NCBI GenBank assembly: GCA_937967505.1 | Contig: CALCJM010000036.1 | Location: forward strand, 1-64,000 | Length of the DNA: 64,000 nucleotides | Direction of reading: 5' to 3' | Origin: an uncultured Pirellulaceae bacterium | GTDB taxonomy: Bacteria > Planctomycetota > Planctomycetia > Pirellulales > Pirellulaceae | In this document: piece by piece, positions 4,920 to 39,097 of the stretch | Numbering within the stretch: the stretch's first letter is position 1 | How the letters are laid out: each line of letters begins with the position of its first letter | Position numbers and translations under genes: made by a program | The notes under the pieces: generated by a model | Seen by the model: the letters and a program-made list of their open reading frames with translations, nothing else | Databases searched by the model: none | Told to the model about the DNA's origin: nothing

Positions 4920-4953
4920 GAACTTTCAGCTCAGAGAGAGAATCCCGCATCAT

Positions 4954-5024
4954 CGTGGCTACGCTCGCCAGAGCGTGGAGGCCTGCTTTCCAGCTCTCCA
5001 CCGCCTGGCGACGGTGGCGACGTT
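4954..5024. repeat. Palindromic element A, single copy
   Basis: A single 71-bp copy of the double-hairpin element found at 1681. The first arm has ACGCTC-GCCA-GAGCGT, the second ACCGCC-TGGC-GACGGT, and the spacer is shorter than in the 1681 array. It sits between the convergent ends of the symporter gene and dcd. Confidence 0.85.
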
Positions 5025-7929: not shown

Positions 7930-10716
7930 CTAACCCACATTTTGCAGGCCGGCGGCGATGCCGTTGATGGATTGTAAAACGCACTGGCGAAAGTGTTCGG
8001 TATCGGCCGCGTCCGGGTTCTGCCGAAGTTTCTTCAGCAGTTCCACCTGGATGTAGTTCAGCGGATCAACGTAGGGGTTCCGAACCTTGATACTGCGTTG
8101 CAGCCACGGTTCGGTATCCAGCACGCTCTCGGTGCCTGTCACCTCCAACAACAAAACACGAGTCAGTTCAAATTCAGCCTTGATATCACCAAAAATAACT
8201 TCCGCATGTTCGGGATCGGCAAGTTCCGCATACAGACTTGCAATCGCCATATCCGCGCGTCCCATCCCCAGATGAACGTTGTCCAACATCGTGCGGAAAA
8301 ATGGCCAGTCGCGATACATCACCTGAAGCGTCTGGATACGACCGGCGCGGTCACCGTTTTCCAGCCACGTTTTAAATCCGGTCCCGACGCCATACCACGA
8401 AGGAATATTCGCCCGGGACTGGGTCCAAGCAAATACCCACGGGATTGCCCGTAAATCGTCCAGTGTTTTGGTCGCACGCCGGTGCGTCGGACGCGATCCA
8501 ATATTGAGTTGTCCAATTTGATCCATCGGTGTTGCCGCCTGGAAGTAGGCTAGGAACATCGGATGTTCGACCAGCCCACGGTATTTTTTATAGGCTGCCA
8601 CACTCAATTCATCCATTGCTGCCGACCAATCTGCGGGCGTTTTTTTGTCGGCCGGGCGATGCCCCGTCGAACACATCACCGCATGCAGAACCTGTTCCAG
8701 ATGCCGTCGTGCAATGGCCGGTTCGCTATAGCGTGAGCTGACCACCTCGCCCTGTTCGGTGATCCGAATGCGGCCGCGCACCGATTCGGGAGGCTGAGCC
8801 AGAATTGCGCGGTTGGTGGGGCCACCGCCACGTCCCAACGACCCGCCACGTCCGTGAAACAACGTCAACCTAATGTTGTGTTTGAGACAAGTCTGCGCCA
8901 TCTGCCGCTGCGCCGTAAACAACATCCAGTTGGCTCGCATAAACCCACCGTCCTTGTTGCTGTCACTGTAGCCGATCATGATTTGCTGCTGGTTGCCGCG
9001 TTGTTTCAGATGTTCCGCGTAGACCGGATGTGCAAACAGGCGCTCCATCGTTTCTGATGCCGCCAGCAAATCGTCCACCGTTTCAAACAGCGGCACGATA
9101 TCGATACAGCCGAACAGATCTGAGTTCTTCGCCAACAGCAGCACCTCCAGCAAATTGCTGACGTTCTCGGTCATGCTGATGATATAAGTCTCCATCGCGC
9201 GGCTGCCACCGGCCTGTTGAGCGCACTTGATCAAGTCAAACAATGCCACCAGATCCGTCGTTGATTCACTGACGCCCCCGGTCGCCAACCTTGCACCATT
9301 GTTCTCCTGCTTTGTCAGTGCACTGGTCAAGGCATCGGTCAATGCGTCTTCGTCGAAGCCGGCGTACCCATCGACGTCCATGTTGGCCTTCATCAATTCC
9401 GCGACGGATCGACGATGCTGGTCGGCATGCTGGCGTACATCGATCGAAGCCAGATGGAAACCGAACACCTCGACTGACCGCATCAGCCGCCGGAAGCGGC
9501 CACGCACCAACCGTTGCCCCTTGTTGGCCTCCAAACTTTCACGAATCAAATTCAAATCATGCAAAAATGATTCGGCATCCGGGTAGGCCCGCGGCAGATC
9601 GGCAGACGCCTGATCGTCCAGCGGCAACTGCGTCTTGCGCAACGTCGTCATCAACCGGCGATACATCATCACCAGTTTCTCGCGATAGGGTTCCTGATGA
9701 AAACGGTCCAACAGTTCATGTTCGGCTTCCTCCACCAGTTTTCGGTCCTCGACCAGACTTTCCAAAAACGCGGCGGAGAATCCGACACGATCACGGGCGC
9801 AACTGAGCAACTCGTAGAACGACATGACCTCGCGCTGGTAAAGTTCCAGTATCAACTTTCTCTGTGCCTGCAAGGCCTCCACGGTGATGTCGTTGGTCAC
9901 GTAAGGATTGCCGTCGCGATCACCACCGATCCACGAACCGTATCGCAGCAGCGGCGGCACGTCAAAATCGTGCCCCGGGAACACCGTCGCCAGATCCCGT
10001 TCCAGTTGCTCGTAAATGCGGGGGACCTGTTCGAACAATGTGTTTTCGAAGAAATACAGCCCCGTATTGCGGACCTCGTCCATAACGGTCGGGCGTCGGT
10101 CGCGCGTTTCGGCACTCTGCCACAACAGCACGATATAATCCTGTAACACGTCCTGCACACGCTCGCGCTGCCGCGGGTAGAGATCCTTTGACGAAATCCT
10201 GGACAACAGCCCGGAGACACTTTTCAGAATCTGGCGAATTGTCTGGCGACGCGACTCGGTCGGGTGGGCGGTAAACACCGGCATCACCAACATGCTGCTG
10301 AGCATGGCCTGGATTTGATGGGCATCGAAGCCCTCCTCTTTCAGCGACACCAAAGCCTGTAGAATCGTCTCATCCATCGGCTCGCCGGCCTCGTACGCGT
10401 CGTTGGAACGGTCCTCCAACACCCGCACGCGCTCGTGCTCTTCAGCCAAATTGACCAACTGGAAATAAGTGGAAAACGCCTTCAGATTGACATCTGTCGT
10501 TTCGGGGTCATTGCTCATTGCGGCCACAATCGCCCGCAGTTCCTCGACCGCCTCTGTGCTGCCGGCGCGGCCGGATTTGGCCAGCCCGCGAATTTTCTCC
10601 TCCAGCTCCAGCATCTCCAGCCCCTCCTGCTGGACGATCGTCTGCCCCAGCAGTTCGCCAAGCACACGAATCGTCTTACCAAGGTCGTTTTGGATGTTTG
10701 AATCAGAAAGGCTCAT
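7930..10716 (-). CDS. ppc: Phosphoenolpyruvate carboxylase
   Basis: Anaplerotic enzyme forming oxaloacetate from PEP and bicarbonate. The catalytic segments are all present: VFTAHPTES with the essential His, GGDRDGNPYVT, and FHGRGGSLGRGGGPTNRAI, the glycine-rich loop. The protein ends in QNVG, close to the family C-terminal signature QNTG. I chose the ATG at 10716 (about 928 residues, MSLSDSNIQND) because the extra 16 residues available upstream from 10764 are unlike the family. It is convergent with the SelW-like gene and divergent from ilvC. Confidence 0.95.
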   Translation of the reverse strand: MSLSDSNIQNDLGKTIRVLGELLGQTIVQQEGLEMLELEEKIRGLAKSGRAGSTEAVEELRAIVAAMSNDPETTDVNLKAFSTYFQLVNLAEEHERVRVLEDRSNDAYEAGEPMDETILQALVSLKEEGFDAHQIQAMLSSMLVMPVFTAHPTESRRQTIRQILKSVSGLLSRISSKDLYPRQRERVQDVLQDYIVLLWQSAETRDRRPTVMDEVRNTGLYFFENTLFEQVPRIYEQLERDLATVFPGHDFDVPPLLRYGSWIGGDRDGNPYVTNDITVEALQAQRKLILELYQREVMSFYELLSCARDRVGFSAAFLESLVEDRKLVEEAEHELLDRFHQEPYREKLVMMYRRLMTTLRKTQLPLDDQASADLPRAYPDAESFLHDLNLIRESLEANKGQRLVRGRFRRLMRSVEVFGFHLASIDVRQHADQHRRSVAELMKANMDVDGYAGFDEDALTDALTSALTKQENNGARLATGGVSESTTDLVALFDLIKCAQQAGGSRAMETYIISMTENVSNLLEVLLLAKNSDLFGCIDIVPLFETVDDLLAASETMERLFAHPVYAEHLKQRGNQQQIMIGYSDSNKDGGFMRANWMLFTAQRQMAQTCLKHNIRLTLFHGRGGSLGRGGGPTNRAILAQPPESVRGRIRITEQGEVVSSRYSEPAIARRHLEQVLHAVMCSTGHRPADKKTPADWSAAMDELSVAAYKKYRGLVEHPMFLAYFQAATPMDQIGQLNIGSRPTHRRATKTLDDLRAIPWVFAWTQSRANIPSWYGVGTGFKTWLENGDRAGRIQTLQVMYRDWPFFRTMLDNVHLGMGRADMAIASLYAELADPEHAEVIFGDIKAEFELTRVLLLEVTGTESVLDTEPWLQRSIKVRNPYVDPLNYIQVELLKKLRQNPDAADTEHFRQCVLQSINGIAAGLQNVG

Positions 10717-18795: not shown

Positions 18796-18878
18796 CGGCG
18801 CTACGCTCGCCAAAGTCGGGAAACCGGTTCTCTCCTTTACACTTCGGCTCCACCGTCTGGCGACGGTGGCTACGCTCC
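18796..18878. repeat. Palindromic element A, degenerate copy
   Basis: Copy of the double-hairpin element in the gap between hom and apgM. The first arm (from 18796) has decayed: ACGCTC-GCCA is followed by AAGTCG instead of GAGCGT. The second arm keeps a perfect ACCGTC-TGGC-GACGGT hairpin. Its position inside a probable operon means it would be transcribed. Confidence 0.75.
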
Positions 18879-22582: not shown

Positions 22583-23566
22583 ATGCCTTTGTACTGCAAC
22601 AAACGTGGTTTCACTTTGGTAGAACTGCTGGTGGTGGTTGCCATCATCGGCATTCTGATGGGGTTACTGTTACCGGCAGTCCAGCAAGTGCGGGAGGCGG
22701 CGCGGCGCACCGAATGCTTGAACAACCTCAAACAACTCGCTCTAGCGTCGCACAATTACCAATCGGCTCGTCAGCGGTTTCCCGCCGGGATTTACGATGA
22801 CGACAATGATCATCGCACGTGTTTGAGAAACGGGCTGGTTGAACTGCTGCCGTTTCTCGAACAGGGTAATCTGTACGATCAAATTGACAGATCACTGCCT
22901 TGGTCAGCCTTGGCCAACCTCGCGGTGACCGAGCCCGCGATTCCTTTTCTACAGTGCCCGTCGGCTGGCGGTGCCGTTGAGGACAATGCCGGCATCCAGG
23001 GGGCGCGTGGCGATTACGCATTTTGCATGGGAGACAATTCAAGAATTTCAACGGACAAACCCCGAGGAATGTTTGGCATCAACAGTCGCATTACCTTCGC
23101 CGATATCCGCGACGGTTCCTCCAATACTCTTCTGATGGGCGAAGCGGCCAGCAGAACGGGCCTGCCTGCAACGTCCACCTGAAGCTGACCGGATATCAAA
23201 ATGGGCCAGGTCTGGTCCAAAGCGAATTTTGATGGAACCAACAACGCCGGTCACCTGGGTGGACGTGGTTCGCTGGTCGCGGTGACCGCACAAAACCCGG
23301 GCCCCGACGGCCAGTGGGACACCGACGACGATGTATTGGCCCGTGTCAACCAACTCCCGGTCGATGTTTCGATTGACGTAGCACCCAATGACAACGGCAA
23401 CGAACTGGATCGGGTTCGTGGGTTCATCAGCTTTCACCCACAAACCTGTAATTTTGTCTTCGCAGACGGCTCAACACACGCGATTGATGAAAATATCAGC
23501 CCGAGCCTGTATCGCGCGGTCAGCACCCGCGATGAAGGTGAAATCATTTCACACGAAGACCTGTAA
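22583..23566 (+). pseudogene. DUF1559 type II pseudopilin, interrupted by two in-frame TGA codons
   Basis: Planctomycete-type DUF1559 protein. The first part carries the prepilin signal GFTLVELLVVVAIIGILMGL and the DUF1559 block TECLNNLKQLALASHNYQS; the last part has the typical end FISFHPQTCNFVFADGSTHA. Both lie in the same frame, and together they give 328 codons, a normal family length, but TGA occurs at 23180-23182 and again at 23186-23188. The alternative frame beginning around 23160 is open through this stretch, so a pair of small indels (or sequencing errors) would also explain it. Decoding of both TGAs as selenocysteine is unlikely as there is no redox motif. Confidence 0.75.
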
Positions 23567-23733: not shown

Positions 23734-24345
23734 CTAACAGACCTCCAAGGCCTTTTTCGTGATGGCGGTGATTTGATCAAATTGCCCTGTGTCGATCATC
23801 TCCGCTTTCACCATCCAGCTACCGCCGCACGCAACGACCGACCGCAGCGCCAGATACTGGCTGATGTTATCCGTATTGATGCCGCCGGTTGGAATAAATC
23901 GTATGCTGCCGTACGGTCCCTGAAGTGCTTTGAGCATGGGAATGCCACCAATCCGTTCAGCCGGAAAAAACTTGACCACCTGCAACCCAAAATCCAGTGC
24001 CGTTTCAAGATCCGTGGGACTGGAACACCCGGGGAAGATCGGCATGTCATTATCCAGGCACCACTGGACCGTTTTGGGATTGAAGCCGGGCGTGACCACA
24101 AACCGGGCACCCGCACCGGCGACTTGTTTGGCATCTTCGACACTGTGAACAGTCCCGGCACCGATCAGAAAGCTATCGATTTTGGCCAATTGGGCGATCG
24201 CCTCCAGCCCGGCGTCAGTCCGCAATGTCACTTCCGCCACCGGTAACCCACCGGCAATCAGAGCATCTGCCAACGGAACAGCGCTCGCGGCGTCATTAAT
24301 AGCCACAACGGGAATAATTTTAAGGTTTTCTAGTTGCTGGATCAT
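23734..24345 (-). CDS. eda: 2-dehydro-3-deoxy-6-phosphogluconate (KDPG) aldolase
   Basis: 203-residue class I aldolase cleaving KDPG to pyruvate and glyceraldehyde 3-phosphate. The visible marks are LPVAEVTLRTDAGLEAI with the catalytic Glu, LIGAGTVHSVEDAKQVAGAG, VTPGFNP, and LQVVKFFPAERIGG with the Schiff-base Lys; the phosphate loop is FIPTGGINTDN. It is divergent from the GntR regulator across a 194-bp region containing a palindrome, and is the expected last enzyme of the anhydrogalactose route encoded to its right. Confidence 0.92.
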   Translation of the reverse strand: MIQQLENLKIIPVVAINDAASAVPLADALIAGGLPVAEVTLRTDAGLEAIAQLAKIDSFLIGAGTVHSVEDAKQVAGAGARFVVTPGFNPKTVQWCLDNDMPIFPGCSSPTDLETALDFGLQVVKFFPAERIGGIPMLKALQGPYGSIRFIPTGGINTDNISQYLALRSVVACGGSWMVKAEMIDTGQFDQITAITKKALEVC

Positions 24346-24479
24346 CTGGATGATACTTTACGTTAAATTGGTGAAGATATTCGCAATAGAGACTACCCTT
24401 TTCGTACCTACAGTTGCGATCCCCGGCTTTTTGTCGTTGACGGATAGATTTTCCACATTAACTTATAACCGATTGTTGG

Positions 24480-24491
24480 ATTGTAAACAAT
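24480..24491. promoter_or_regulatory. Palindromic candidate operator between eda and the GntR gene
   Basis: Perfect 12-bp palindrome ATTGTAAACAAT in the 194-bp divergent region, 49 bp upstream of the GntR start. GntR/FCD regulators bind short palindromes and usually sit beside their own gene. A second ACAAT lies 15 bp downstream. No experimental or comparative support is available here. Confidence 0.4.
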
Positions 24492-24539
24492 TGCCCGGAT
24501 GGGTACACAATGGAGACAGTGTGACAGGAGAGTTGCCTA

Positions 24540-25265
24540 ATGGCTTCAATTAGAGAAGAGATTACCAGCAAAATTAGAGATGAGCTAGTTGCGGGAAATT
24601 TCGAAGTGGGGCATCCCCTTCGAGAGACCGAAATGGCGAAGCGTTTCGGGGTCAGCCGCGGACCAATTCGTGATGCATTTTTACAGCTGTCCAAAGATGG
24701 CTTTCTGGCGTATCAATCCAATCGGGGGGTGACTGTTCGCCATCCTCCGGCGGCCGAGGATCGGGGTTTCATTGCCTCAATTCGCTCCCAAATTGAGCTT
24801 TATATTGTTGGCAAGGGGTTCGAGACACTCACGCCGATCAGCTTGGGCAGAATTGAAATCACGCTTGAGGAGCTACAAGAGGCGTGTATCTCCGCCGATG
24901 TCGTCGAAGTTGCTAAAGCCGACATGGCGTTTCACCAGGCGATCCTTCAAGAATGCGGCGGCGAAGATCACATTCAGGTGTGGCGACAACTCTGCTCGCG
25001 TACGTTGCTGACGTATTCGCGTCTGGACTCATATCAGGAGGCCTATTGCGAGCACGTGGATATCTTTGAGGCACTCCGGGCGCGCGATCGGGCCAAAGCG
25101 CTTGCCGCCATCGAAAACAACATTACCTCCCCGCCGTCGCGGCCGCACAGCGCTCGTGCGGACCAAACGACGGAAGATCCGCCAACTTCGGATCAACCGG
25201 GTGCAGATCAACTAGGTGCAAATCAACCGAGTGCAGATCAACAAATCGAGGACCCGCAGAATTAA
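24540..25265 (+). CDS. GntR-family transcriptional regulator (FadR/FCD subfamily) with repeat tail
   Basis: 241-residue regulator. Residues 1-68 form a winged helix-turn-helix (HPLRETEMAKRFGVSRGPIR), followed by an FCD ligand-binding domain whose FHQAIL helix carries the family metal/effector His. FCD proteins commonly sense sugar acids, which fits the sugar-acid locus it precedes. The last 40 residues are unusual: a polar tail rich in Ala, Asp, Gln and Pro encoded by a 15-nt tandem repeat. It is divergent from eda and 66 bp upstream of the carrier gene, and I infer it controls both directions. Confidence 0.85.
   Translation: MASIREEITSKIRDELVAGNFEVGHPLRETEMAKRFGVSRGPIRDAFLQLSKDGFLAYQSNRGVTVRHPPAAEDRGFIASIRSQIELYIVGKGFETLTPISLGRIEITLEELQEACISADVVEVAKADMAFHQAILQECGGEDHIQVWRQLCSRTLLTYSRLDSYQEAYCEHVDIFEALRARDRAKALAAIENNITSPPSRPHSARADQTTEDPPTSDQPGADQLGANQPSADQQIEDPQN
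25191..25244 (+). repeat. 15-nt tandem repeat in the 3' end of the GntR gene
   Basis: Three full copies and one partial copy of a 15-nt unit such as GATCAACCGGGTGCA at 25191, 25206, 25221 and 25236, each differing by a few bases. It encodes repeats of roughly Asp/Asn-Gln-Pro/Leu-Gly/Ser-Ala in the C-terminal tail and does not disturb the frame. Confidence 0.85.
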
Positions 25266-25331
25266 TCCTGCCTGCGGCAATGACGCCACAGCAAACGACC
25301 ACCACAACCACCGCAGTAAGGAATACAGAAC

Positions 25332-26471
25332 ATGTTGATCGGGATTTTGTCGGCGCTGTTGGCCGGTGCCATGTTGGGGCTTTACGCCCTCCCTGGAAAA
25401 TACGTCAAAGACTTTCAGGAAGAGAACAAATGGAGCATGTTCTTTTTGCTGACCATGTTTGTAGTGCCGCTGATTGTGACTTTCGGCATGATGAAGGGCG
25501 TCACGGAGATTTACTCATCGCTGGACAGTGGAATCCTGCTGACGATGGTCGTCGCCAGTTTCCTCTGGGGTGTCGGTGTGATGATGTGGGGCAAAGCCAT
25601 CGACCACATCGGTCTGTCTCTGGGGTTTTCGCTGTTCATTGGTACGGTGATTCTGGTCGGCAGCCTACTCCCCTTGGGGATCGATCTCTACAATGGAAAA
25701 GACTTGCCCTCGGCTGGTATTCTGGCATTGATCGTACTGGGCATTTTTGTTGTTCTCGCTGGTGTTGTATTCAACGGAAAAGCCGGCTTGACGCGTGAAA
25801 AGGACGAAGTCACCGCCGGAAACATCGACGACACCCGGGACGACGATGCTCCGAAGAAAAAGTCATTCGCCACCGGAATCATGATCGCCGTCATCGGTGG
25901 CCTGTTGGCAACCGGCTTCAACGTTGCCTTTACGGTAGGCGGCGGGCCACTGAAAGAACTGGTGCTTGCCAACGGCAACCCTGAATGGATGACCGCCATG
26001 GCTGTCATGCTGCCGGTGTTTATTAGCGGTGGCGTCGTCATGACGTTGTATTTTGGTTGGCAACTAACTCAAAAGAAGGCTTGGGGATCGTTCTCCACAT
26101 CGGCATTGGTGCTGAACGTCATCTTGATCGCCATCATGGCTTTCTTTCATTACGCCGCATCTGCGATGTATGCGTTTGCCGCGAACGCCCTAGGGGATGC
26201 AGGCCCGGTTGTTGTTTATGCGATCTTCAACACCACGTGCCTTGTCGTCGCGGTTGTCAGTGGAATTCTGACAGGTGAATGGGCCAAGGCCTCTCCTCAG
26301 GCGAAAAAGTTCCTCTACCAAGGACTGGCGTGCATGGTTGGAGGAGTGTTGGTACTGACCGCCAGCCAAGCCTTGAAGTCGCCTCCACCCGCTCCTGCTC
26401 CCACAGAAGAAGCGCGCAGCGTAATGGACAACCCGCAAGGGTTGGCGACATCGGTCATGGTCGCCCGATAG
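25332..26471 (+). CDS. RhaT-family sugar:proton symporter
   Basis: 379-residue carrier with about ten transmembrane segments and the RhaT N-terminus AGAMLGLYALPGKYVKDFQ, which includes the conserved motif of L-rhamnose-proton transporters. A charged cytoplasmic loop around residues 157-176 (EKDEVTAGNIDDTRDDDAPK) is the typical central loop. In this context (GH117, enolase-superfamily and KDPG genes) the likelier substrate is 3,6-anhydrogalactose or a related deoxy/anhydro sugar rather than rhamnose, but this is inference. It follows the GntR gene and precedes the mutarotase. Confidence 0.8.
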   Translation: MLIGILSALLAGAMLGLYALPGKYVKDFQEENKWSMFFLLTMFVVPLIVTFGMMKGVTEIYSSLDSGILLTMVVASFLWGVGVMMWGKAIDHIGLSLGFSLFIGTVILVGSLLPLGIDLYNGKDLPSAGILALIVLGIFVVLAGVVFNGKAGLTREKDEVTAGNIDDTRDDDAPKKKSFATGIMIAVIGGLLATGFNVAFTVGGGPLKELVLANGNPEWMTAMAVMLPVFISGGVVMTLYFGWQLTQKKAWGSFSTSALVLNVILIAIMAFFHYAASAMYAFAANALGDAGPVVVYAIFNTTCLVVAVVSGILTGEWAKASPQAKKFLYQGLACMVGGVLVLTASQALKSPPPAPAPTEEARSVMDNPQGLATSVMVAR

Positions 26472-26539
26472 ACAAACCGGGCTGTCACTTTCTTTTTTTA
26501 TGTCAGCGTAAACAGACTACACAGTGGGGGGATTTCAGG

Positions 26540-27601
26540 ATGAAAATTGAACAAGAATCGTTTGGAGAATTCAACGGCGACCCGGTCGAGCAATACACGC
26601 TAGACAACGATAACGGCGTGGTGGTCAAAGTTTGCACTTACGGCGGTACGGTGACCTCCATCACTACGCCCGACAAAAATGGCAGCTCCGACGACATCGT
26701 CTGCGGCTTCGATTCACTTGACGGCTATTTTTCAGACGATTACAAAAACAATTCGCCCTACTTCGGCTGCCTGGTGGGACGCTATGCGGCGCGCATCAAA
26801 GACGGGAAATTCTCCGTCAATGGCAACGATCATCAGGTCGCCACCAACGACGGACCCAACCACCTGCACGGCGGTATTGTCGGATACGACAAACGGATCT
26901 GGTCGGTCGATTCGGCCGACGCAGAAAGCGATCACGTCTCTCTGGTCCTGTCGCTGAAAAGTACCGACGGCGAAGAGGCGTTTCCCGGCAACGTTGATGT
27001 GACGGTTGAATACAAATTGACCGCCGACAATGCCTTGGAGATCCACTACAGCGCAACCACCGACAAAACGACGCCACTATCGCTGACCAATCACACGTAT
27101 TTCAACCTCAACGGTTTCAAAGACACCGTTCTGGATCACATTGTTCAACTCTCCAGCGATCGCTACCTGGAACCGGACGAAACCAACGTCCCTGTCGGTG
27201 TAGAAACCAGCGTGGCAGGCACCGTTTGCGATTTCAATACTCCTAAACGGATCGGTGATTGCTTTGAAGAACTGCCGATGGGGTTTGAACATTTTTACGC
27301 GTTTTCAAAATCGCCTGATGCGTTTGAAAAAGTTGCCGAGGTCACCGAACCGACCAGCGGGCGACGCTTGGAAGTGTTCTCTTCGGAACCCGGCACGTTG
27401 CTGTACACCGGTCGTTACACCTCCGATGATTTGAAGCGCGAAAGTGGGGCTCAATTTGGCCAGTTCCGTGGCTTCTGCCTCGAAACGTCCAAGTACCCCA
27501 ACGGCCCCAACATCAACGGCCCGCGCAGCGTGCTCTCACCCGGCGAACAGTACCGCGAAAAAACAGTCTATAAATTCTCCGTCGATCCGGGGCTGGCGTG
27601 A
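26540..27601 (+). CDS. galM: Aldose 1-epimerase (mutarotase)
   Basis: 353-residue GalM-type enzyme interconverting alpha and beta anomers of sugars. Marks: VKVCTYGGTVTSITTPD, GRYAARIKDGKFSVNG, the catalytic-His segment TNHTYFNLNG and the C-terminal GFCLETSKYPNGPN, in which the Glu is the catalytic base. I start it at 26540, where ATG follows TTTCAGG; the frame is open upstream but overlaps the RhaT gene end and is non-homologous. It would supply the reactive anomer to the dehydrogenase of this locus. Confidence 0.92.
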   Translation: MKIEQESFGEFNGDPVEQYTLDNDNGVVVKVCTYGGTVTSITTPDKNGSSDDIVCGFDSLDGYFSDDYKNNSPYFGCLVGRYAARIKDGKFSVNGNDHQVATNDGPNHLHGGIVGYDKRIWSVDSADAESDHVSLVLSLKSTDGEEAFPGNVDVTVEYKLTADNALEIHYSATTDKTTPLSLTNHTYFNLNGFKDTVLDHIVQLSSDRYLEPDETNVPVGVETSVAGTVCDFNTPKRIGDCFEELPMGFEHFYAFSKSPDAFEKVAEVTEPTSGRRLEVFSSEPGTLLYTGRYTSDDLKRESGAQFGQFRGFCLETSKYPNGPNINGPRSVLSPGEQYREKTVYKFSVDPGLA

Positions 27602-27772
27602 TCTGGTAACCTGATTACCTTTCACCGCAATTACTGCCTCCCGGGCGCTGGCCGCAGGTCCCTCACGCGGCCAACGGGCGGCTAACCGGCGGCGAGCGCA
27701 TGGTCGCGGGCGGTTCAGCTTCAAGCATCCATTTTCGAAATCATTTTTCTCCCCCTCCCGCCATAACGATTC

Positions 27773-28786
27773 ATGAAATCAGCCCAATACCTCCGCAACA
27801 AAACCATCGGCGTTGCCGAAAGCCAGTCCATCGCACCGGGTGACGGCGAAGTTCGCCTAAACGTTGGCTTCTGCGGAATCTGCGGAACGGACATTCATAT
27901 TTTTCACGGTGCGATGGATACCCGGGTCGCAGACCCTCAGATCATTGGGCATGAGGCATCGGCCACTGTTGCAGAAGTCGGCACTGGCGTGACCAACGTG
28001 AAGGTCGGTGACCGCGTCGCCGTTCGTCCGCTGAAATTTGGCCAACCGGCTGACTTTGACAAAGGGTTCGCCCACGTCGGCAAGAATCTCAAATTTATCG
28101 GCATCGATCTTCCCGGCGGTATGCAATCTTCGTGGACGGTGCCGGCCTATACGCTGCATCATCTTCCGGATGATCTCTCACTTGAGCACGGAGCGCTAAT
28201 CGAACCGGCCGCCGTCGCCTGCCACGACGTGCGCATGGGTGCAGTCCAATCAGGTGAAACGGTCGTGGTGATCGGTGGTGGTCCCATTGGCTTGCTGATT
28301 GCGTTGGTGGCTGTTGAAAAAGGAGCACGTGTCATTCTCTCTGAAGTCAATGAAACGCGGCTTGAGCTGGCACGCTCGTTAGGTATCGAAGCCGTCAACC
28401 CAATCAAGGAAAAACTGCCTGAAGCGGTCGATCGGTTGACCAACGGGCGGATGGCCGATTGTGTATTTGAAGTTTCCGGTTCCGCACCCGGCGTGGAAGT
28501 GATGACGGAAGTCGTCAATGTGCGAGCGCGCATTGTGATGGTTGCGATTCACCCACAACCCAAGCCCGTCAATTTGTTCAAGTTCTTCTGGTCTGAAATC
28601 AAGATGATTGGTGCCCGTTTATACGAGGAACAAGATTTTGATGAAGCGATCGCACTGGCCAGCAGCGGCAAACTGCACCTAGAAAAAATGATCACCCAAG
28701 TCATGCCGATTGACAAGGTTCAGGAAGCATTTGAAGCAATCGACGCCAATCCGGACGGGATCAAAACACTGATACAGTGCAGCTAA
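27773..28786 (+). CDS. MDR-family zinc alcohol dehydrogenase, candidate 2-keto-3-deoxy-L-galactonate 5-dehydrogenase
   Basis: 337-residue medium-chain dehydrogenase. The catalytic-zinc segment is GFCGICGTDIHIFHG (Cys37) with GHEASATVAEVG (His60-Glu61), and the cofactor site is VVVIGGGPIGLLIALVA. The usual four-cysteine structural zinc lobe after the GDRVAV strand is absent: residues about 84-110 have no Cys, so the lobe is replaced. Sorbitol/idonate dehydrogenases look alike. In the known anhydro-L-galactose pathway a dehydrogenase of this type oxidises 2-keto-3-deoxy-L-galactonate at C5, and the adjacent KduD-like reductase completes the epimerisation, so I favour that role. Substrate is not proven by sequence. 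Confidence 0.75.
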   Translation: MKSAQYLRNKTIGVAESQSIAPGDGEVRLNVGFCGICGTDIHIFHGAMDTRVADPQIIGHEASATVAEVGTGVTNVKVGDRVAVRPLKFGQPADFDKGFAHVGKNLKFIGIDLPGGMQSSWTVPAYTLHHLPDDLSLEHGALIEPAAVACHDVRMGAVQSGETVVVIGGGPIGLLIALVAVEKGARVILSEVNETRLELARSLGIEAVNPIKEKLPEAVDRLTNGRMADCVFEVSGSAPGVEVMTEVVNVRARIVMVAIHPQPKPVNLFKFFWSEIKMIGARLYEEQDFDEAIALASSGKLHLEKMITQVMPIDKVQEAFEAIDANPDGIKTLIQCS

Positions 28787-28808
28787 TGTGATCGACATGC
28801 CTCACCTC

Positions 28809-29034
28809 AACGTAGCTACCGTCGTCAGACGGTGGAGACCAAGAGAAAAGAGACAAACCCAACAGCAAACCTTTACCCACAGGCTCCACGCTCTGCCGAG
28901 CGTAGCCACGACGACATGCCTCACCTAACGTAGCTACCGTCGCCAGACGGTGGAGACCAAGAGAAAAAAGACAAACCCAACAGCAGACCTTTAACCACAG
29001 GCTCCACGCTCTGGCGAGCATAGCCACGACGAAC
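28809..29034. repeat. Two tandem copies of palindromic element A, inverted orientation
   Basis: Two copies with a 118-bp period begin at 28809 and 28927, filling nearly all of the 304-bp gap between the MDR and SDR genes. The order is reversed relative to 1681: the ACCGTC-GTCA-GACGGT hairpin comes first and ACGCTC-TGCC-GAGCGT second. The first copy has loops GTCA/TGCC and the second GCCA/TGGC, so the loops vary in step with the stems. The copies would lie within the operon mRNA. Confidence 0.9.
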
Positions 29035-29090
29035 GAAGAAAACTTTTTTCACCAAACAACCAACCAAACAATAATAAAAGCAACAGACTT

Positions 29091-29861
29091 ATGAGCAACC
29101 TGGCACAGTTTGATTTGACCGGAAAAACAGCCATCGTCACCGGCTGCAAACGCGGCATTGGCAAAGGCATGGCGATCGGATTGGCGGAAGCAGGAGCCAA
29201 CGTTATTGGTGTCTCGGCATCTCTGGAGACCAGCGGCAGTGCGGTCGAAAAAGAGGTCACGGCGCTGGGTGTTTCATTCACCGGATACCAGTGTGATTTC
29301 TCGGACCGCGCAGCACTGTACAAATTTATCGCGGACGTCAAAGCCAATCATCCGCAAGTCGATATTTTGGTAAATAACGCGGGGACGATTTTGCGTAAGC
29401 CGGCTGCCGAACACCCCGATGATTACTGGGACAAGGTCGTCGAGGTCAATTTGAATGCGCAGTTCATTCTGTCACGCGAGTTTGGCAAAGACATGATCCA
29501 ACGCGGCAGTGGCAAAGTCATCTTTACGGCATCGCTATTGACGTACCAGGGCGGCATCACGGTCCCCGGTTACGCCGCCAGCAAAGGCGGTATTGGGCAA
29601 CTGACGATGGCGCTGGCCAACGAGTGGGCCGGCAAAGGGGTCAACGTAAACGCGATTGCTCCGGGTTACATCGCGACAGACAATACCCAGGCACTACAGG
29701 ACGATCCTGATCGTAGCGCAGCGATTCTCTCCCGCATCCCGGCCGGACGCTGGGGCGCTCCGGAGGATTTCAAGGGCCCCGTGGTCTTCCTTGCTTCGGA
29801 AGCATCCAGCTACGTTCACGGTTCAGTGATGCTGGTCGATGGCGGCTGGATGGGAAGGTAG
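29091..29861 (+). CDS. KduD-like short-chain dehydrogenase, candidate 2,5-diketo-3-deoxy-L-galactonate reductase
   Basis: 256-residue SDR. It has the cofactor motif TAIVTGCKRGIGKGMA, the NNAG stretch VDILVNNAGTILRKP, the active-site YAASKGG (Tyr-x-x-x-Lys) with an upstream catalytic Ser, and the segment NVNAIAPGYIATDNT, which closely follows KduD (2-dehydro-3-deoxy-D-gluconate 5-dehydrogenase). In the 3,6-anhydro-L-galactose route a KduD-type enzyme reduces 2,5-diketo-3-deoxy-L-galactonate to 2-keto-3-deoxy-D-gluconate; its place between the MDR dehydrogenase and the aldehyde dehydrogenase supports that assignment. Classical pectin-pathway KduD is the alternative. Confidence 0.82.
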   Translation: MSNLAQFDLTGKTAIVTGCKRGIGKGMAIGLAEAGANVIGVSASLETSGSAVEKEVTALGVSFTGYQCDFSDRAALYKFIADVKANHPQVDILVNNAGTILRKPAAEHPDDYWDKVVEVNLNAQFILSREFGKDMIQRGSGKVIFTASLLTYQGGITVPGYAASKGGIGQLTMALANEWAGKGVNVNAIAPGYIATDNTQALQDDPDRSAAILSRIPAGRWGAPEDFKGPVVFLASEASSYVHGSVMLVDGGWMGR

Positions 29862-29864
29862 TCG

Positions 29865-29973
29865 TTTAGGCGATTGGCAGTTGATAGCTTACCGTTGACG
29901 ATGCTGCCAGCTTCGCGCCGACGCTGGCAGCGTCGCCAACGGATGGTAAATTCTTCACTGACAGTTGCCTTAA
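29865..29973. repeat. MITE-like palindromic element B, copy 1
   Basis: A 109-bp imperfect palindrome whose termini read TTTAGGCGATTGGCAG at the left and end in TTGCCTTAA at the right. The core hairpin pairs TTACCGTTGACGATGCTGCC, CAGC with the reverse-complementary right side around GCTGGCAGCGTCGCC. Its reverse complement matches the copy at 39147 along most of the length. No coding capacity and no clear target-site duplication was seen. It sits in the 193-bp gap between the SDR and the aldehyde dehydrogenase. Confidence 0.85.
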
Positions 29974-30054
29974 CAGACACACGAGTTTAAACACACCGCG
30001 CGGTAAATAACCGACGCAAGCAACCCCCGACGAAAAACCCGAATAGGCAGAACT

Positions 30055-31533
30055 ATGGCCAACGAAATGAAACAGGCTGACGGAACCAAAGAAGCTTACC
30101 GCATGTTTATCGGTGGTCAGTGGAAGGACGCCTCTGACGGCGCTCGGATGGACGTTGAAAACCCGACCACCGAAGAAATCATCTACACCGTCCCCAACGG
30201 CACCGTCCAGGACGCCCAGGCGGCACTGCAATCGGCCGCCGATGCGCAGCAGGCTTGGGCCAAACTGCCCGCTGTGGAACGTGGGCAGCACTTGATCGCA
30301 CTGGCCGCAAAAATTCGCGAAAACCAGGAGCACCTGGCAAAAATCTTGGTCGCCGAGCAGGGCAAAACGCTGGGCTTGGCCATGGGCGAAGTCGGTGTGT
30401 CGGCCGATTTTCTAGAGTACCCGGCGCATGGTGCACGACGTCTGGAAGGAGATATTTTTCCATCGGACAACCCCGATGAGCACCTGTTGATTCACAAAGT
30501 ACCCTACGGTGTTTGCGTAGGCATCCTAGCGTGGAATTTCCCGTTCGCGTTGGCGTGTCGAAAAATTGGCCCCGCGCTGACCGCCGGCAACACGATGGTC
30601 GTCAAACCACCGGAGATCACGCCGGTGGCCGTTCTGGAACTGGGACGTTTGGCACTGGAAGCAGGGCTTCCCGAAGGCGTTCTGAATGTGGTTACCGGTG
30701 ACGGAGCCGGTATGGGGCGCGCGCTGGTGACCAACAAACTGACCCGTCTGGTCTCGATGACCGGCAGCACCAAAACAGGCCAGAAAATTTTCGCCGATTG
30801 TGCACAAAACCTGACCGCCGTTCGACTTGAGCTTGGTGGTAAGGCTCCGTTTATCCTGATGGAAGACGGCGACGTGGATAAAGCCGTCGAAGGTGCAATG
30901 CTGTCGCGTTACCTGAATCAGGGCCAGGTCTGCACGTGCAGCGAACGATTTTATATTCACGAGGACGTTTATGACGAATTCTTGGAAAAATACATTGCCG
31001 CCAGCCGCAAACTGAAGTTGGGCGATCCGATGCTCGACGACACCGATGTCGGGCCAAAGGTAAGTCTGGTCGAACTCGAAAAAATGGAAGCCATGGTCCA
31101 ACGCGCGATCGATGCGGGTTGCAAAGTGGAGATTGGTGGAAAACGCCCGGAGGGGGCCGGGTTCGAGAAAGGCTATTGGTACGAGCCCACGATTTTAACC
31201 GGTGCAAATAACGACATGGAGATTATGCAGGACGAGATTTTTGGCGTGGTCAGTCCGATCATGAAAATCTCCAGTTTCGAACAGGCTTTGGAACTGGCCA
31301 ATGACAGCGACTATGGTCTGTCAGCGTTTCTGTTCACCAACGATAACCGTCGCATCCAACGGGCCGTTGGCGAGCTGGAATTTGGCGAAATATACGTCAA
31401 CCGCGGAATGGGCGAACAACGCCAAGGCTTCCACAATGGGCACAAATTGAGTGGCACAGGTGGCGAAGACGGAAAATACGGAATGGAGAACTACCTAGAG
31501 AAGAAAACGATGTATATCAATTTCTCTCAATAG
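30055..31533 (+). CDS. AldA-type aldehyde dehydrogenase, candidate 3,6-anhydro-L-galactose dehydrogenase
   Basis: 492-residue NAD(P)-dependent aldehyde dehydrogenase closest in pattern to E. coli AldA (lactaldehyde/glycolaldehyde dehydrogenase). Visible marks are LAWNFPFALACRKIGPAL and NTMVVKPPEITP (cofactor site), SMTGSTKTGQKI, the catalytic Glu in LELGGKAPFIL and the catalytic Cys in NQGQVCTCSERF. In the anhydrogalactose pathway an enzyme of this class oxidises 3,6-anhydro-L-galactose to its aldonate; location in the locus favours that role over lactaldehyde oxidation. The assignment of substrate is inference. Confidence 0.82.
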   Translation: MANEMKQADGTKEAYRMFIGGQWKDASDGARMDVENPTTEEIIYTVPNGTVQDAQAALQSAADAQQAWAKLPAVERGQHLIALAAKIRENQEHLAKILVAEQGKTLGLAMGEVGVSADFLEYPAHGARRLEGDIFPSDNPDEHLLIHKVPYGVCVGILAWNFPFALACRKIGPALTAGNTMVVKPPEITPVAVLELGRLALEAGLPEGVLNVVTGDGAGMGRALVTNKLTRLVSMTGSTKTGQKIFADCAQNLTAVRLELGGKAPFILMEDGDVDKAVEGAMLSRYLNQGQVCTCSERFYIHEDVYDEFLEKYIAASRKLKLGDPMLDDTDVGPKVSLVELEKMEAMVQRAIDAGCKVEIGGKRPEGAGFEKGYWYEPTILTGANNDMEIMQDEIFGVVSPIMKISSFEQALELANDSDYGLSAFLFTNDNRRIQRAVGELEFGEIYVNRGMGEQRQGFHNGHKLSGTGGEDGKYGMENYLEKKTMYINFSQ

Positions 31534-31560
31534 GGCATCATCTGGCTTTCCGATGCGATT

Positions 31561-31649
31561 TGGCGAGTTAGAATCTGGCGAGTTAGAATCTGAACAGTAA
31601 TCGCAGGAACGCTCCCTCCCCTGAAGGGCCTCGGCTTGACGAGGTTCCT
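31561..31649. repeat. Direct repeat and long hairpin between the dehydrogenase and the cycloisomerase
   Basis: The 15-bp unit TGGCGAGTTAGAATC is repeated perfectly in tandem (31561-31575 and 31576-31590). Further on, AGGAAC at 31605 pairs with GTTCCT at 31644, enclosing CCTCG-GCTTGA-CGAGG (31629-31644; the two overlap by one base, so only one can form fully). This 151-bp gap may hold a processing or regulatory hairpin; no known RNA motif is recognised. Confidence 0.5.
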
Positions 31650-31684
31650 CCTTTCCCATTTTTCCGGCCCTGAATATTTAAAAA

Positions 31685-32782
31685 ATGAAGATCGAGAAAG
31701 TAGAAACGGAACTCTACCACGTTCCTTTGTCCCGTCCGATGGAGGACGCGATCCACGGAATTCAGAAGAACTTCTCGCTGATCGTGGTGAAGATTACCAC
31801 CGATGATGGCGCGAGCGGCATGGGATACACCTACAGTGTTGGCGAGGTTGGCGGGACGGCGATCGCCACGCTGATCCGCGACAACCTCGCCTCCCTAGTG
31901 ATCGGGGAGGATCCGCGCCGCATCGAAAAGATCTGGAAAAAACTCTGGTGGGCCGTGCACTACGTTGGCCGCAGCGGCATTGCCGTATTCGGTATTTCGG
32001 CGATCGACACGGCATTGTGGGATTTGAAATCACGGGTTGCCAATGAACCGCTGTGGAGGTTCCTCGGCGGCGATGACAGCAAAGTCGAGGCCTATGGCGG
32101 CGGCATTGACTTCGACCTTTCCATTGAAGACTTGTTGAAGCAGGCCGAGGGATTTTTGGACGAAGGACTGCGGGCGATCAAGATCAAAATCGGACGCGAT
32201 TCGATCTCCCAGGAATGCGAACGGATCGAGGCCGTACGGAACTTCATTGGCCCCGAGATGAAGTTGATGGTCGATGTCAACATGAAGTGGAAAATCGACA
32301 AGGCGCTCAAGGCCGTCCGGGCATTTGAAAAATACGACCTGCACTGGATTGAAGAACCGATTATTCCTGACGATGTTGCCGGACACCGGCGGCTGGAAAC
32401 CGAGGGGCCGATTGCAGTCTGCACAGGCGAAAACCTCCACTCGATTTACGAATTCCGCCAGATGATCGCCGAAGGTGGAGTCTCCTACCCGGATGCAGAC
32501 ATTTCCAACCTGGGCGGAATCACCGCGCTGATGAAAGTGGCTCACATCGCAGAAGCATACAATCGCGATTTGACGACCCACGGTATTCAGGACATGCATG
32601 TCAGCTGCTTGGCGGCTATCCCCAATGCGTCGCTGTTGGAGATCCACGCGTTTCGCGTCGATGATTTCCTGATCCATCCGCTGGAGATCAAGGATGGCTA
32701 CGCCTATGCGTCGGATCGCCCGGGGCACGGGGTTGTGATTGACTGGGACAAACTTTCGAAACACCGCATTGGGCAAGGATAG
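31685..32782 (+). CDS. Enolase-superfamily protein, candidate 3,6-anhydro-L-galactonate cycloisomerase
   Basis: 365-residue member of the mandelate racemase/muconate lactonising enzyme group. Catalytic residues are in place: KIK at 166-168, metal ligands Asp197, Glu223 or Glu224 in WIEEPI and Glu249 in TGEN, and His299 in TTHGIQD. The HYVGRSGIAVFGISAIDTAL stretch and the GENLHSIYEFRQM segment follow, from memory, the pattern of the characterised 3,6-anhydro-L-galactonate cycloisomerases rather than other sugar-acid dehydratases. The ring opening would give 2-keto-3-deoxy-L-galactonate, substrate for the MDR enzyme at 27773. Other aldonate dehydratases remain possible. Confidence 0.82.
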   Translation: MKIEKVETELYHVPLSRPMEDAIHGIQKNFSLIVVKITTDDGASGMGYTYSVGEVGGTAIATLIRDNLASLVIGEDPRRIEKIWKKLWWAVHYVGRSGIAVFGISAIDTALWDLKSRVANEPLWRFLGGDDSKVEAYGGGIDFDLSIEDLLKQAEGFLDEGLRAIKIKIGRDSISQECERIEAVRNFIGPEMKLMVDVNMKWKIDKALKAVRAFEKYDLHWIEEPIIPDDVAGHRRLETEGPIAVCTGENLHSIYEFRQMIAEGGVSYPDADISNLGGITALMKVAHIAEAYNRDLTTHGIQDMHVSCLAAIPNASLLEIHAFRVDDFLIHPLEIKDGYAYASDRPGHGVVIDWDKLSKHRIGQG

Positions 32783-32857
32783 ATTTGTGGGGAAGAAACC
32801 CGGCGGGTCGTTTGCACACCGACTGAACCGGTCAGCTATCATTGGTCATTGATTTCC

Positions 32858-34075
32858 ATGAAACTCTCAAAACACAAAAACCATAAAATGAGTTCCTCAA
32901 GCATGAAATTCAAAGCAAACCTTCTGGCAGTGATCATTCTCTCCTTTGTTTCCACCGCTCATGCACAGACTCCTACCCCGGAGCAAATTGATTTTCTGGG
33001 CATTACGACGCCGGACAAACTGAGTGCGGCAACCAAACGCGCTCTCAAGTGGCCGAATATTGGTAACGAGTGGTTCGTTCAATTTTCCACTCAAGATCTC
33101 AAAGGCGACCTTGCCTATGAGGAGGGTGTTGTGCGACGCGATCCCAGCGCTATGATCAAGGAGAACGGCAAGTACTACGTTTGGTACTCGCGCAGCGTTG
33201 GCCCCAGTCAGGGATTTGGGGGCGACGTTGAAAACGATAAAGTCTGGCCGTGGGATCGCTGCGATCTGTGGTATGCCACATCGACCGATGGCTGGACATG
33301 GAAAGAAGAAGGCCTGGCCGTCCCGCGCGGTGAAAAAGGGGCCTACGACGACCGGTCCGTGTTCACCTGCGAAATCATGAAGCACGCAGGGATGTACTAC
33401 CTGTGTTATCAGACCGTGAAATCACCATACACCATTCGCGTTCAAAATCAGGTTGGCCTGGCGTGGTCGAAGTCTCCCAATGGCCCTTGGACCAAAAGCA
33501 AAGAACCGATTCTCAGCCCGGCAAAAAACGGTATCTGGAAAGGCACCGAACAAAATCGATTCATGGTGGAAAAGAAAGGTGACTTCGACAGCCACAAAGT
33601 TCACGACCCATGCATCGTGCCTTTCAAGGGAAAATTTTATCTGTACTACAAAGGTGAACAGATGGGCGAAGCGATCACCTTTGGCGGACGTCAGATTCGT
33701 CACGGGGTTGCCATCGCCGACAACCCCAAAGGCCCCTACGTCAAATCTCCCTATAATCCAATTTCCAACAGTGGGCATGAAGTCTGTGTCTGGCCCTATA
33801 ACGGTGGGATCGCCTCACTGATCACAACTGATGGCCCGGAGAAGAATACCATTCAGTGGGCCTCCGATGGAATCAATTTTGAAATCATGTCCGTGATCAA
33901 AGACGCGCCCCATGCAATCGGCCTCAACCGCGACGCCGACAATGAGAAAGAGCCGACGGAGATCCTGCGCTGGGGGCTGACGCATCAATACCGAACTGGC
34001 GATTACCAGGTGATTCGCCGGTTTTCATCCCGTCGCATCCAGCACCACACCGCCAAAGGCGAAAAAGCCAATTAG
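32858..34075 (+). CDS. GH117 family glycoside hydrolase (3,6-anhydro-L-galactosidase type)
   Basis: Exported five-bladed-propeller hydrolase of about 405 residues. An N-terminal signal ([19 protein letters not shown]) precedes the mature domain. GH117 marks follow in order: [55 protein letters not shown], and [13 protein letters not shown], whose His corresponds to the family acid. Family members release terminal 3,6-anhydro-L-galactose from neoagaro-oligosaccharides. Start 32858 is one of several; ATG at 32888 or 32903 is also possible and each leaves the signal intact. It closes the locus and would make the sugar that the upstream genes degrade. Confidence 0.88.
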
Positions 34076-34325: not shown

Positions 34326-37636
<3,311 letters not shown>

Positions 37637-37640
<4 letters not shown>

Positions 37641-39097
37641 GAAACAACAAACGAATGTGCACCGGAAACGACATCAACCCGTTTCGCAGTCGCCGAAAAT
37701 TTCTCAGCCAATTCGGCCAGGGACTTGGCTCAGTCGCACTGGGCAGTTTGCTGAATCCGGGTTCGGCCGCCGCCGCATCAGGCGACCAAGGCATCCCGGG
37801 GAAACCGGATTTCGCCCCGAAAGCAAAACGGATCATCTATCTGTTTCAGTCGGGAGCCCCATCCCAGATGGATCTGTACGACTATAAACCTCGCCTGAAC
37901 AGAGACCATGGCAAAGAGCTTCCCGAAAGCGTACGAGGCGAACAACGCCTGACCAACATGAGTGGTTTTCAGTCCAGTTTGCCGCTGGCAGGATCGCCTT
38001 TCCAATTCAAACAGCACGGTGACAGTGGTGCGTGGATCAGCGATCTGCTGCCGCACACAGCGCGGATCGCCGATGATCTGTGCTTCATCAAAGCGGCCTA
38101 TACTGAAGCCATCAATCACGGTCCCGGCGTCACGATGATGCAGACCGGTTCCCAGTTTCCCGGCCGGCCAAGCATGGGATCATGGCTGCATTACGGTCTG
38201 GGATCGGAAAACGCGGATCTGCCGGCATTTGTCGTCATGGTTTCGACGGAGCGCGGCGGTCAACCCTTGACTTCAGCGCTCTGGGGTAGCGGTTTCCTAC
38301 CGGGAAAATACGATGGCGTCGAACTAAGATCCGCCAAAGATGCCGTGCTGTATCTGAACAGCCCCAACGGCATCGATCGTGGCAGCCGCCGCAAAGCGCT
38401 GGACAGACTGCAACAGCTGCATCGGTTGGAACTGGAATCCACCAGCGATCCGGCACTCGAAACACGCATCGCCCAATACGAACTGGCCTTCAGAATGCAG
38501 ATGTCGATTCCGGAAGTCACCGATATCTCGGACGAACCGGAATCAACATTCGAGTTATACGGAAAGGATTCCAGAACACCGGGCACTTACGCGGCAAACT
38601 GCCTGCGCGCCAGGCGGCTGGCGGAAAAAGGCGTCCGTTTTATTCAACTGTACCAACCGGGTTGGGACCACCACAGCGGTATCACGGGGCAGCTGAAAAA
38701 TTCAGCACGAAAGACCGACCAGGCATCCGCGGCTTTGGTTACCGACCTGAAGAACCGTGGCATGCTGGACGACACGCTGGTAATCTGGGGCGGTGAGTTC
38801 GGTCGCACCAGTTACTGCCAGGGGAAACTGGACCCTGTTTCCTTCGGCCGCGACCATCATCCGCGTTGTTTCACCATGTGGATGGCTGGCGGCGGTGTGA
38901 AGGCTGGCTACAGCCACGGTGAAACCGACGACTACAGTTACAACGTGATCGACGGCGGCGTTCACGTCCACGACCTGCACGCCACGATCCTGCATCAGAT
39001 GGGTATCAATCACGAAAAACTGACATTCAAATATCAGGGACGACACTTCCGCCTGACTGATGTACACGGCCACGTGGTCAAAGACATTCTCGCGTAG
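37637..39097 (+). CDS. DUF1501 protein, Tat-exported
   Basis: 486-residue protein related to alkaline-phosphatase/sulfatase folds (DUF1501). The N-terminus has a twin-arginine motif SRRKFLSQFG (residues 18-27) followed by a hydrophobic segment. Family marks include QSGAPSQMDLYDYKP, the FIQLYQPGWDHHSGI stretch, and EFGRTSYCQGKLDPVSFGRD with DHHPRCFTMWMAGGGVKAG. It starts at GTG 37637, whose GTGA overlaps the previous stop; ATG at 37655 is a weaker alternative. This DUF1549/1553-DUF1501 pair is a recurring planctomycete operon of unknown substrate. Confidence 0.87.

Follow-up and report, generated by a model that had tools for sequence, protein, structure and literature searches.

A probable anhydro-L-galactose operon with an exchangeable cycloisomerase slot and a candidate FCD operator in a Pirellulaceae bacterium

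Within a 64,000-nucleotide stretch from an uncultured Pirellulaceae bacterium (contig CALCJM010000036.1 of assembly GCA_937967505.1; hereafter the window), a block of nine genes at positions 23734-34075 very probably forms, as judged from sequence, an operon for the use of 3,6-anhydro-L-galactose (L-AHG) from agar. All nine open reading frames (ORFs) are open, without internal stops, and match the description in the original prediction, which had read them as one block fitting the known L-AHG route. On the minus strand lies eda (23734..24345), encoding a KDPG/KHG aldolase (TIGR01182, 254.8 bits against a cut-off of 156; Pfam Aldolase, 230 bits). It diverges across a 194-bp gap from the other eight genes, all on the plus strand and separated by 66-304 bp. 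In that gap, between eda and the regulator gene, lies a candidate operator, ATTGTAAACAAT (24480..24491), with counterparts upstream of the regulator gene in relatives. The eight genes encode a GntR/FCD regulator (24540..25265; FCD 54 bits, GntR 47.7 bits), a RhaT-like permease presumed from its context to import L-AHG (25332..26471; PF06379, 53.2 bits), a galM-like aldose 1-epimerase or mutarotase (26540..27601; PF01263 Aldose_epim, 263 bits), a medium-chain dehydrogenase (MDR; 27773..28786; ADH_zinc_N/ADH_N), a KduD-like short-chain dehydrogenase (SDR; 29091..29861; adh_short_C2, 183.5 bits), a putative L-AHG dehydrogenase of the aldehyde dehydrogenase type (ALDH; 30055..31533; Aldedh, 522 bits), a predicted 3,6-anhydro-L-galactonate cycloisomerase (31685..32782; MR_MLE_C 199 bits, MR_MLE_N 75 bits) and a predicted GH117 3,6-anhydro-alpha-L-galactosidase (32858..34075). 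A single transcript of the eight genes is plausible, if unproven. The same genes recur in the same order in relatives at 46-94% identity, which places the locus beyond chance. The host assembly comprises 5.03 Mb in 183 contigs and is 88.9% complete, and in the named genome collection its close matches, with Rhodopirellula rubra and R. sallentina among them, belong to the Pirellulaceae.

In the pathway that we propose, the exported GH117 would free L-AHG from neoagaro-oligosaccharides, the permease would take it up, and the mutarotase would interconvert its forms. The ALDH would turn L-AHG into 3,6-anhydro-L-galactonate, which the cycloisomerase would open to 2-keto-3-deoxy-L-galactonate (L-KDGal). 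L-KDGal and 2-keto-3-deoxygluconate (KDG) differ at C5 only, and oxidation at C5 gives a 2,5-diketo acid, the substrate of KduD in pectin catabolism. The MDR is thus proposed to act as an L-KDGal 5-dehydrogenase producing this diketo acid, and the SDR as the reductase converting it to KDG; such an inversion of C5 would be redox-neutral, one NAD(P)H being made and one used. A kinase encoded elsewhere, together with Eda, would then yield pyruvate and glyceraldehyde-3-phosphate.

This proposal draws in the first place on the GH117, the ALDH and the cycloisomerase, given that their nearest solved proteins are L-AHG enzymes and that their catalytic residues are kept. The GH117 scores 706 bits against 3p2n, which we take to be a Zobellia enzyme, 633 against 5ta7 and 629 against 4ak5; its assignment is based on this search of solved structures, not on Pfam, which gives Glyco_hydro_43 only (57 bits). 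Equivalents of Asp90, Glu167, Asp245, His302, Glu303 and Asp320 are retained, the residues for which catalytic roles are described (Asp90, His302/Asp320 and Glu303, with Glu167 and Asp245; PMC11574756), and a hydrophobic N-terminus suggests that the protein is probably exported. Distant GH117-like proteins carry Asp or Gly at position 167. One such protein, 35-37% identical to the window GH117, adjoins the cycloisomerase in loci L055, L056, L058, L070 and L071, and has Asp for Glu at 167 and mostly His for Asp at 320. The ALDH scores 572 bits against 6j75, 548 against 3k2w and 430 against 2opx, and bears the active-site Glu and Cys motifs LELGGK and GQVC; 6j75 is the L-AHG dehydrogenase reference in Table 2 of PMC10163077. 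The cycloisomerase scores 389 bits against 2ovl and 323 against 5xd7, the next protein being a talarate/galactarate dehydratase at 204 bits; by score, then, the enolase-superfamily protein is nearest to cycloisomerases and not to a different dehydratase, and the original prediction stands up to the sequence-level refutation that it had set itself. We take 5xd7 to be the Vibrio EJY3 enzyme, and its database entry names only anhydrogalactonate cycloisomerase activity. As for 2ovl, it is SCO3480 of Streptomyces coelicolor: the primers printed in PMC9706016, as we translated them, encode the MIERVRT start and the RLAVG end of 2ovl, and seven of the eight pocket residue numbers given there land on the stated letters. 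The eighth is printed as Glu-307, a number that hits Leu; the Glu lies at 317 and was used here. All eight pocket residues (K K D E E D H E) are kept in the window enzyme.

The nearest solved proteins of the MDR and the SDR are 1e3j (157 bits) and 4z9y (255.6 bits), the same references as those of the Aquimarina genes named for the L-KDGal 5-dehydrogenase and reductase steps (PMC10163077). Both genes are linked to the cycloisomerase in the window and likewise in relatives, in line with the earlier view of the pair as a mark of the L route. The labels KduD and RhaT, also taken over from that prediction, stand for the family and fail for the equivalog: they mean family-like here, since the NCBIfam scores lie below the cut-offs (TIGR01832, 323.3 against 338.85; NF010022, 267.4 against 369).

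Co-occurrence points in the same direction. Among 241 genomes of the family, the cycloisomerase (E <= 1e-70) has matches in 26, GH117 (E <= 1e-120) in 18 and the MDR (E <= 1e-80) in 22. GH117 is found in 18 of the 26 genomes with a cycloisomerase match and in none of the 215 others (Fisher 2.5e-21, ignoring shared ancestry). The MDR is found in 18 of the 26 and in four of the 215, namely G133, where the match is cut at the contig start, G063, G193 and G196. The cycloisomerase adjoins an ALDH or GH117 gene in 19 of the 26 genomes; G134 is the sole one of these 19 without a GH117 match, GH117 fragments being present, and G056 is without an MDR match. A first count, 18 of 19 'operon' genomes, was dropped: the neighbourhoods had been viewed before the 19 were defined, which makes that count partly circular. 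The comparison of 18/26 with 0/215 is independent of that definition, and both counts take no account of shared ancestry. In five genomes (G130, G147, G149, G158 and G159) GH117 and the operon are either on separate contigs or at least about 100 kb apart, so the association of the two is not mere linkage.

The best evidence that the window enzyme may catalyze the proposed reaction comes from exchange in its slot. In three loci of genus g53 (L070, L071 and L072) and one of g50 (L073), the permease, galM, MDR, SDR and ALDH are 67-84% identical to those of the window and FCD is 52-55% identical, yet the cycloisomerase is only 38-42% identical. The protein in its place shows 63-72% identity with 5xd7 and 41-43% with SCO3480 (the L070 copy scores 629 bits against 5xd7), and these four proteins form one clade with 5xd7 (support 100/100) in a tree with many other forks open. 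Compared with L058, which holds a window-type enzyme, the g53 loci are 88-90% identical in MDR, 88-91% in SDR, 85-91% in ALDH, 80-88% in permease and 73-84% in FCD, and just 44-45% in cycloisomerase. DNA similarity between them stops at the end of the ALDH gene and restarts in the gene after the cycloisomerase in L070 and L071; in L072 there is no restart in place. Genus g50 holds both types, the 5xd7 type in G156 and the window type in G149, G158 and G159. We read these patterns as replacement of the cycloisomerase in place, in four relatives, by a second characterised lineage. The SDR slot is occupied in one genome (L052 of G147) by a gluconate-5-dehydrogenase-type protein (409.8 bits, above the cut-off of 369) that is 38% identical to the window SDR.

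Genes elsewhere in the host genome add to the L-AHG reading, in that they include a candidate KDG kinase on contig C44 and two GH86 genes. KDG kinase had been noted as missing, with a genome search proposed; it is indeed absent from the locus, but not from the genome if the candidate at C44:24909-25946 is what it appears to be, a PfkB protein with 238 bits to 2afb, adjoining a second eda, a major facilitator superfamily carrier and a galactonate/mannonate-dehydratase-like gene. A PfkB-type gene neighbours eda in six relatives (G149, G156, G158, G159, G169 and G190), the copies being 89-91% identical to that of G190, the copy checked against Pfam; its best counterpart in the host genome is the C44 kinase, at 30%. 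One of the two GH86 genes, on the same contig about 27 kb beyond the window end, is nearer to agarases (5ta1, 115.8 bits; 8h97, 111.7 bits) than to the porphyranase 4aw7 (84.7 bits); 5ta1 is called an agarase in PMC10163077. The host genome also holds three GH2 matches and three distant GH117-like proteins. In addition, host contig C27 (L076:7850-12244) encodes a 1464-aa chain with alpha-L-fucosidase, GH16, GH117-like and 3-keto-disaccharide hydrolase stretches, and the window itself, at 54390-57578 on the plus strand, a 1062-aa protein with a GLAA-B beta-barrel/beta-helix part and a sulfatase part (172.5 bits), perhaps another algal-galactan enzyme.

Several observations weigh against the proposed pathway. 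Identity of the cycloisomerase to SCO3480 is no more than 46%, and to 5xd7 39%; no characterised enzyme is close to the MDR; and the KduD and RhaT profiles fall short as described. Gaps within the eight-gene run reach 304 bp. The C44 kinase scores below all NCBIfam kinase cut-offs, the host GH16 matches are not clear agarases (one is a kappa-carrageenase/beta-glucanase-like protein far under the cut-off, the other a domain in the fucosidase fusion), and a search of the host genome for GH50 found none, a search that gave no match in control genomes either. Above all, seven of the 26 genomes (G220, G227, G230, G233, G235, G236 and G237; loci L062-L065 and L067-L069) hold a cycloisomerase homologue without the pathway: no pathway gene at pathway-level identity occurs in the stretches examined, five of them shortened by contig ends, and there is no GH117 or MDR match genome-wide at the survey thresholds. 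Five of these seven homologues are full-length, 49-52% identical to the window enzyme and intact in their pocket residues. In the tree, from which the fragments L068 and L069 (omitted also from the residue table) and seven more distant homologues were left out, the window enzyme forms its own branch, and the pathway-less homologues are closer to SCO3480 (53-55%) than is the window enzyme. At L063 the homologue adjoins, as seen by eye, glycolate-oxidase-like and phosphonoacetaldehyde-like genes. Since five of the pathway-less homologues keep the pocket, we rejected a cycloisomerase call by sequence alone, and genomic context decides it.

Could the genes then serve a different sugar-acid pathway, of the talarate/galactarate, rhamnonate or fuconate type, lying by chance beside GH117? 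RhaT, AldA-type ALDH, enolase-superfamily dehydratases, SDR and Eda occur in such routes too; the seven genomes indicate that this sub-branch is not confined to L-AHG, and the best NCBIfam match of the window enzyme is L-talarate/galactarate dehydratase (271.9 against a cut-off of 500), with no Pfam or NCBIfam equivalog above cut-off. However, the solved cycloisomerases outscore the talarate/galactarate dehydratase by more than 100 bits, GH117 tracks the operon even where unlinked, and a characterised cycloisomerase lineage occupies the same slot in relatives, all of which makes this explanation very improbable. Slighter still is the chance that the locus serves the D-anhydrogalactose route of carrageenan, which has in common with it the ALDH and cycloisomerase logic and a symporter of the drug/metabolite transporter (DMT) type, and to which the weak kappa-carrageenase-like GH16 of the host genome might lend itself. 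That route dispenses with the MDR/KduD step and carries a kinase and a KDPGal aldolase in its cluster; the window locus has both MDR and KduD-like SDR and no kinase. Moreover, GH117 is a hydrolase of the L sugar, and the nearest proteins of GH117, ALDH and cycloisomerase are L-route enzymes. Given that GH117 and MDR co-occur with the cycloisomerase and that the 5xd7 type fills the same slot in four relatives, the use of L-AHG from agar is the reading we retain.

How might the operon be controlled? The probable site of action of the FCD protein is the palindrome that separates its own gene from eda, DNA binding and the sign of regulation both being presumed. Upstream of FCD, six of the 14 loci inspected (L055, L056, L058, L060, L070 and L071) carry TGTTAACAATTAACA; the remaining eight carry variants recognized by eye, including ATTGTAAACAAT in the window and ATTGTAGACAAT in L050. 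A scan allowing at most one mismatch gave 21 sites, seven of them exact, in 12 operon genomes, nine of which hold a site, and five sites, none exact, in 30 operon-free relatives, chosen by label from the 215 genomes without a cycloisomerase match. The reversed pattern, used as a control, gave none and 11 respectively, so chance counts differ between genomes. Six of the 21 sites lie at eda/FCD promoters and 15 elsewhere. Of the latter, four adjoin GH117 (in G130, G149, G171 and G190), the G171 one facing FCD as well. GH16 or GH117-like genes account for three, of which two are in G171 and one is in G048, and a GH50-like gene, whose Agarase_CBM score of 25.8 bits narrowly misses the cut-off of 26.3, accounts for one. 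Two more sit at ExbB-type genes with GH2 enzymes beside them, identified by Pfam in G158 but only by resemblance in G159. In G171 a further site separates a BNR_4 gene from the gene of a sodium:solute symporter (SSF); the remaining four are without evident target. Several of the sites stand between divergently oriented genes or run into a predicted gene start.

These sites may outline a wider regulon; alternatively, the palindrome may be a local operator of the FCD operon only, or be bound by FCD paralogues, the other sites being due to chance or to another regulator. The density of sites away from the promoters, 15 in 92 Mb of operon genomes against five in 206 Mb of operon-free ones (p = 6e-5; 9e-4 without three G171 sites; by genome, eight of 12 against five of 30, p = 0.003), argues for the wider reading, as does the position of 11 of the 15 by GH117, GH16, GH50-like, ExbB-type or BNR_4/SSF genes. 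A purely local operator would fit the four sites without evident target, the several between divergent genes, the location of G171:44554 between GH117 and FCD, and the three of 12 operon genomes without a site match. The host genome has ATTGTNNACAATYG, a variant, at the operon and in one further place, on C81, where no target is evident, and it yielded no second target of the palindrome. In G149 the unlinked GH117 has as neighbours another FCD-like regulator and a galM-like gene, both named by resemblance (L149:7923-8525 and 8893-9996), so an FCD paralogue may act at that site. On balance we consider the local explanation somewhat unlikely. That the host GH86 genes share the operator of the operon was rejected, no site adjoining GH86 in the stretches scanned. 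Taken together, a picture of agar-using Pirellulaceae with a dispersed FCD regulon, a core operon with exchangeable slots (cycloisomerase and, in one genome, SDR) and, in the window enzyme, a third cycloisomerase branch has in our view an even chance of being right.

Other features of the neighbourhood may be noted. The MDR-SDR gap contains a 122-bp unit in tandem, two copies 94% identical (28793-29032), pieces of which occur at 1683-1974, 4950-5024 and 18835-18874 and in L076, L081 and L082 of the same genome; since the gap, 304 bp in the window, measures about 55-70 bp in loci L049 and L050, the operon may have taken up a repeat element. Directly after GH117, on the plus strand (34326-39097), stand a planctomycete cytochrome/DUF1549/DUF1553-type gene and a DUF1501-type gene, named partly by resemblance to L147; both are kept in L050 and L059 and the first also in L061, all from genomes of the same genus. 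On the plus strand at 22583-23566, a DUF1559/pseudopilin-like gene, so labelled by resemblance, is read as neighbouring ORFs, 22583-23182 and 23201-23566, which may be a single gene that has been interrupted.

Neither the pathway as a type nor its presence in a close relative is a new finding. The L route, described for Pseudoalteromonas atlantica in 2014, has been applied to Paraglaciecola (PMC5943477) and to Aquimarina (PMC10163077), and GH117 matches were counted in Rhodopirellula, at a loose cut-off, in PMC4807772. A planctomycete version is not new, contrary to the original prediction: in R. sallentina SM41 (our L008/L056) the cycloisomerase, L-AHG dehydrogenase, L-KDGal 5-dehydrogenase and reductase were named as clustered in 2016, as in the window (PMC5069468, text and Fig. 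4C legend). The passages of that paper on the cluster name no regulator, permease or operator, unlike our description, and in SM41 a distant GH117 stands beside the cycloisomerase and the true GH117 on another contig, whereas the window GH117 is in the operon. P. atlantica and Paraglaciecola hydrolytica share the five-step logic to 2-keto-3-deoxy-6-phosphogluconate, MDR and SDR included, but belong to another phylum, with another gene order and the kinase within the polysaccharide utilisation locus (PUL; PMC5943477). PUL-a of Aquimarina sp. ERC-38 likewise has GH117, MDR, SDR, ALDH and cycloisomerase adjacent; unlike the window, its cycloisomerase is of the 5xd7 type (69.1%), agarases are in the locus, and kinase and aldolase lie elsewhere (PMC10163077). 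S. coelicolor has a characterised ALDH and cycloisomerase, SCO3486 and SCO3480 (PMC9706016), the latter the nearest solved relative of the window enzyme. The carrageenan cluster dauA-D of Zobellia resembles the window in its ALDH, cycloisomerase and DMT-type sugar/H+ symporter, a precedent to set beside the RhaT-type carrier that seemed new in the original prediction, and differs in acting on the D enantiomer, with a kinase, a KDPGal aldolase and an AraC regulator (PMC5698469). In the open-access literature searched we saw neither an FCD regulator or operator for agar genes nor an exchange of cycloisomerase lineages; what is worth retaining from the present analysis is the slot exchange and, with it, the candidate regulon.

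A 2024 review regards the entry of L-KDGal into E. coli metabolism as not yet elucidated and calls for further work on bacterial L-KDGal catabolism (PMC11219438), although PMC5943477 cites an MDR and SDR route already reported for P. atlantica. The linkage of MDR, SDR and cycloisomerase in a planctomycete family with cultured members, R. rubra and R. sallentina, would make the L-KDGal step testable in another phylum. Through the slot exchange, two lineages of cycloisomerase could be compared as natural pairs within a single setting, and the palindrome supplies a concrete candidate regulator-operator pair.

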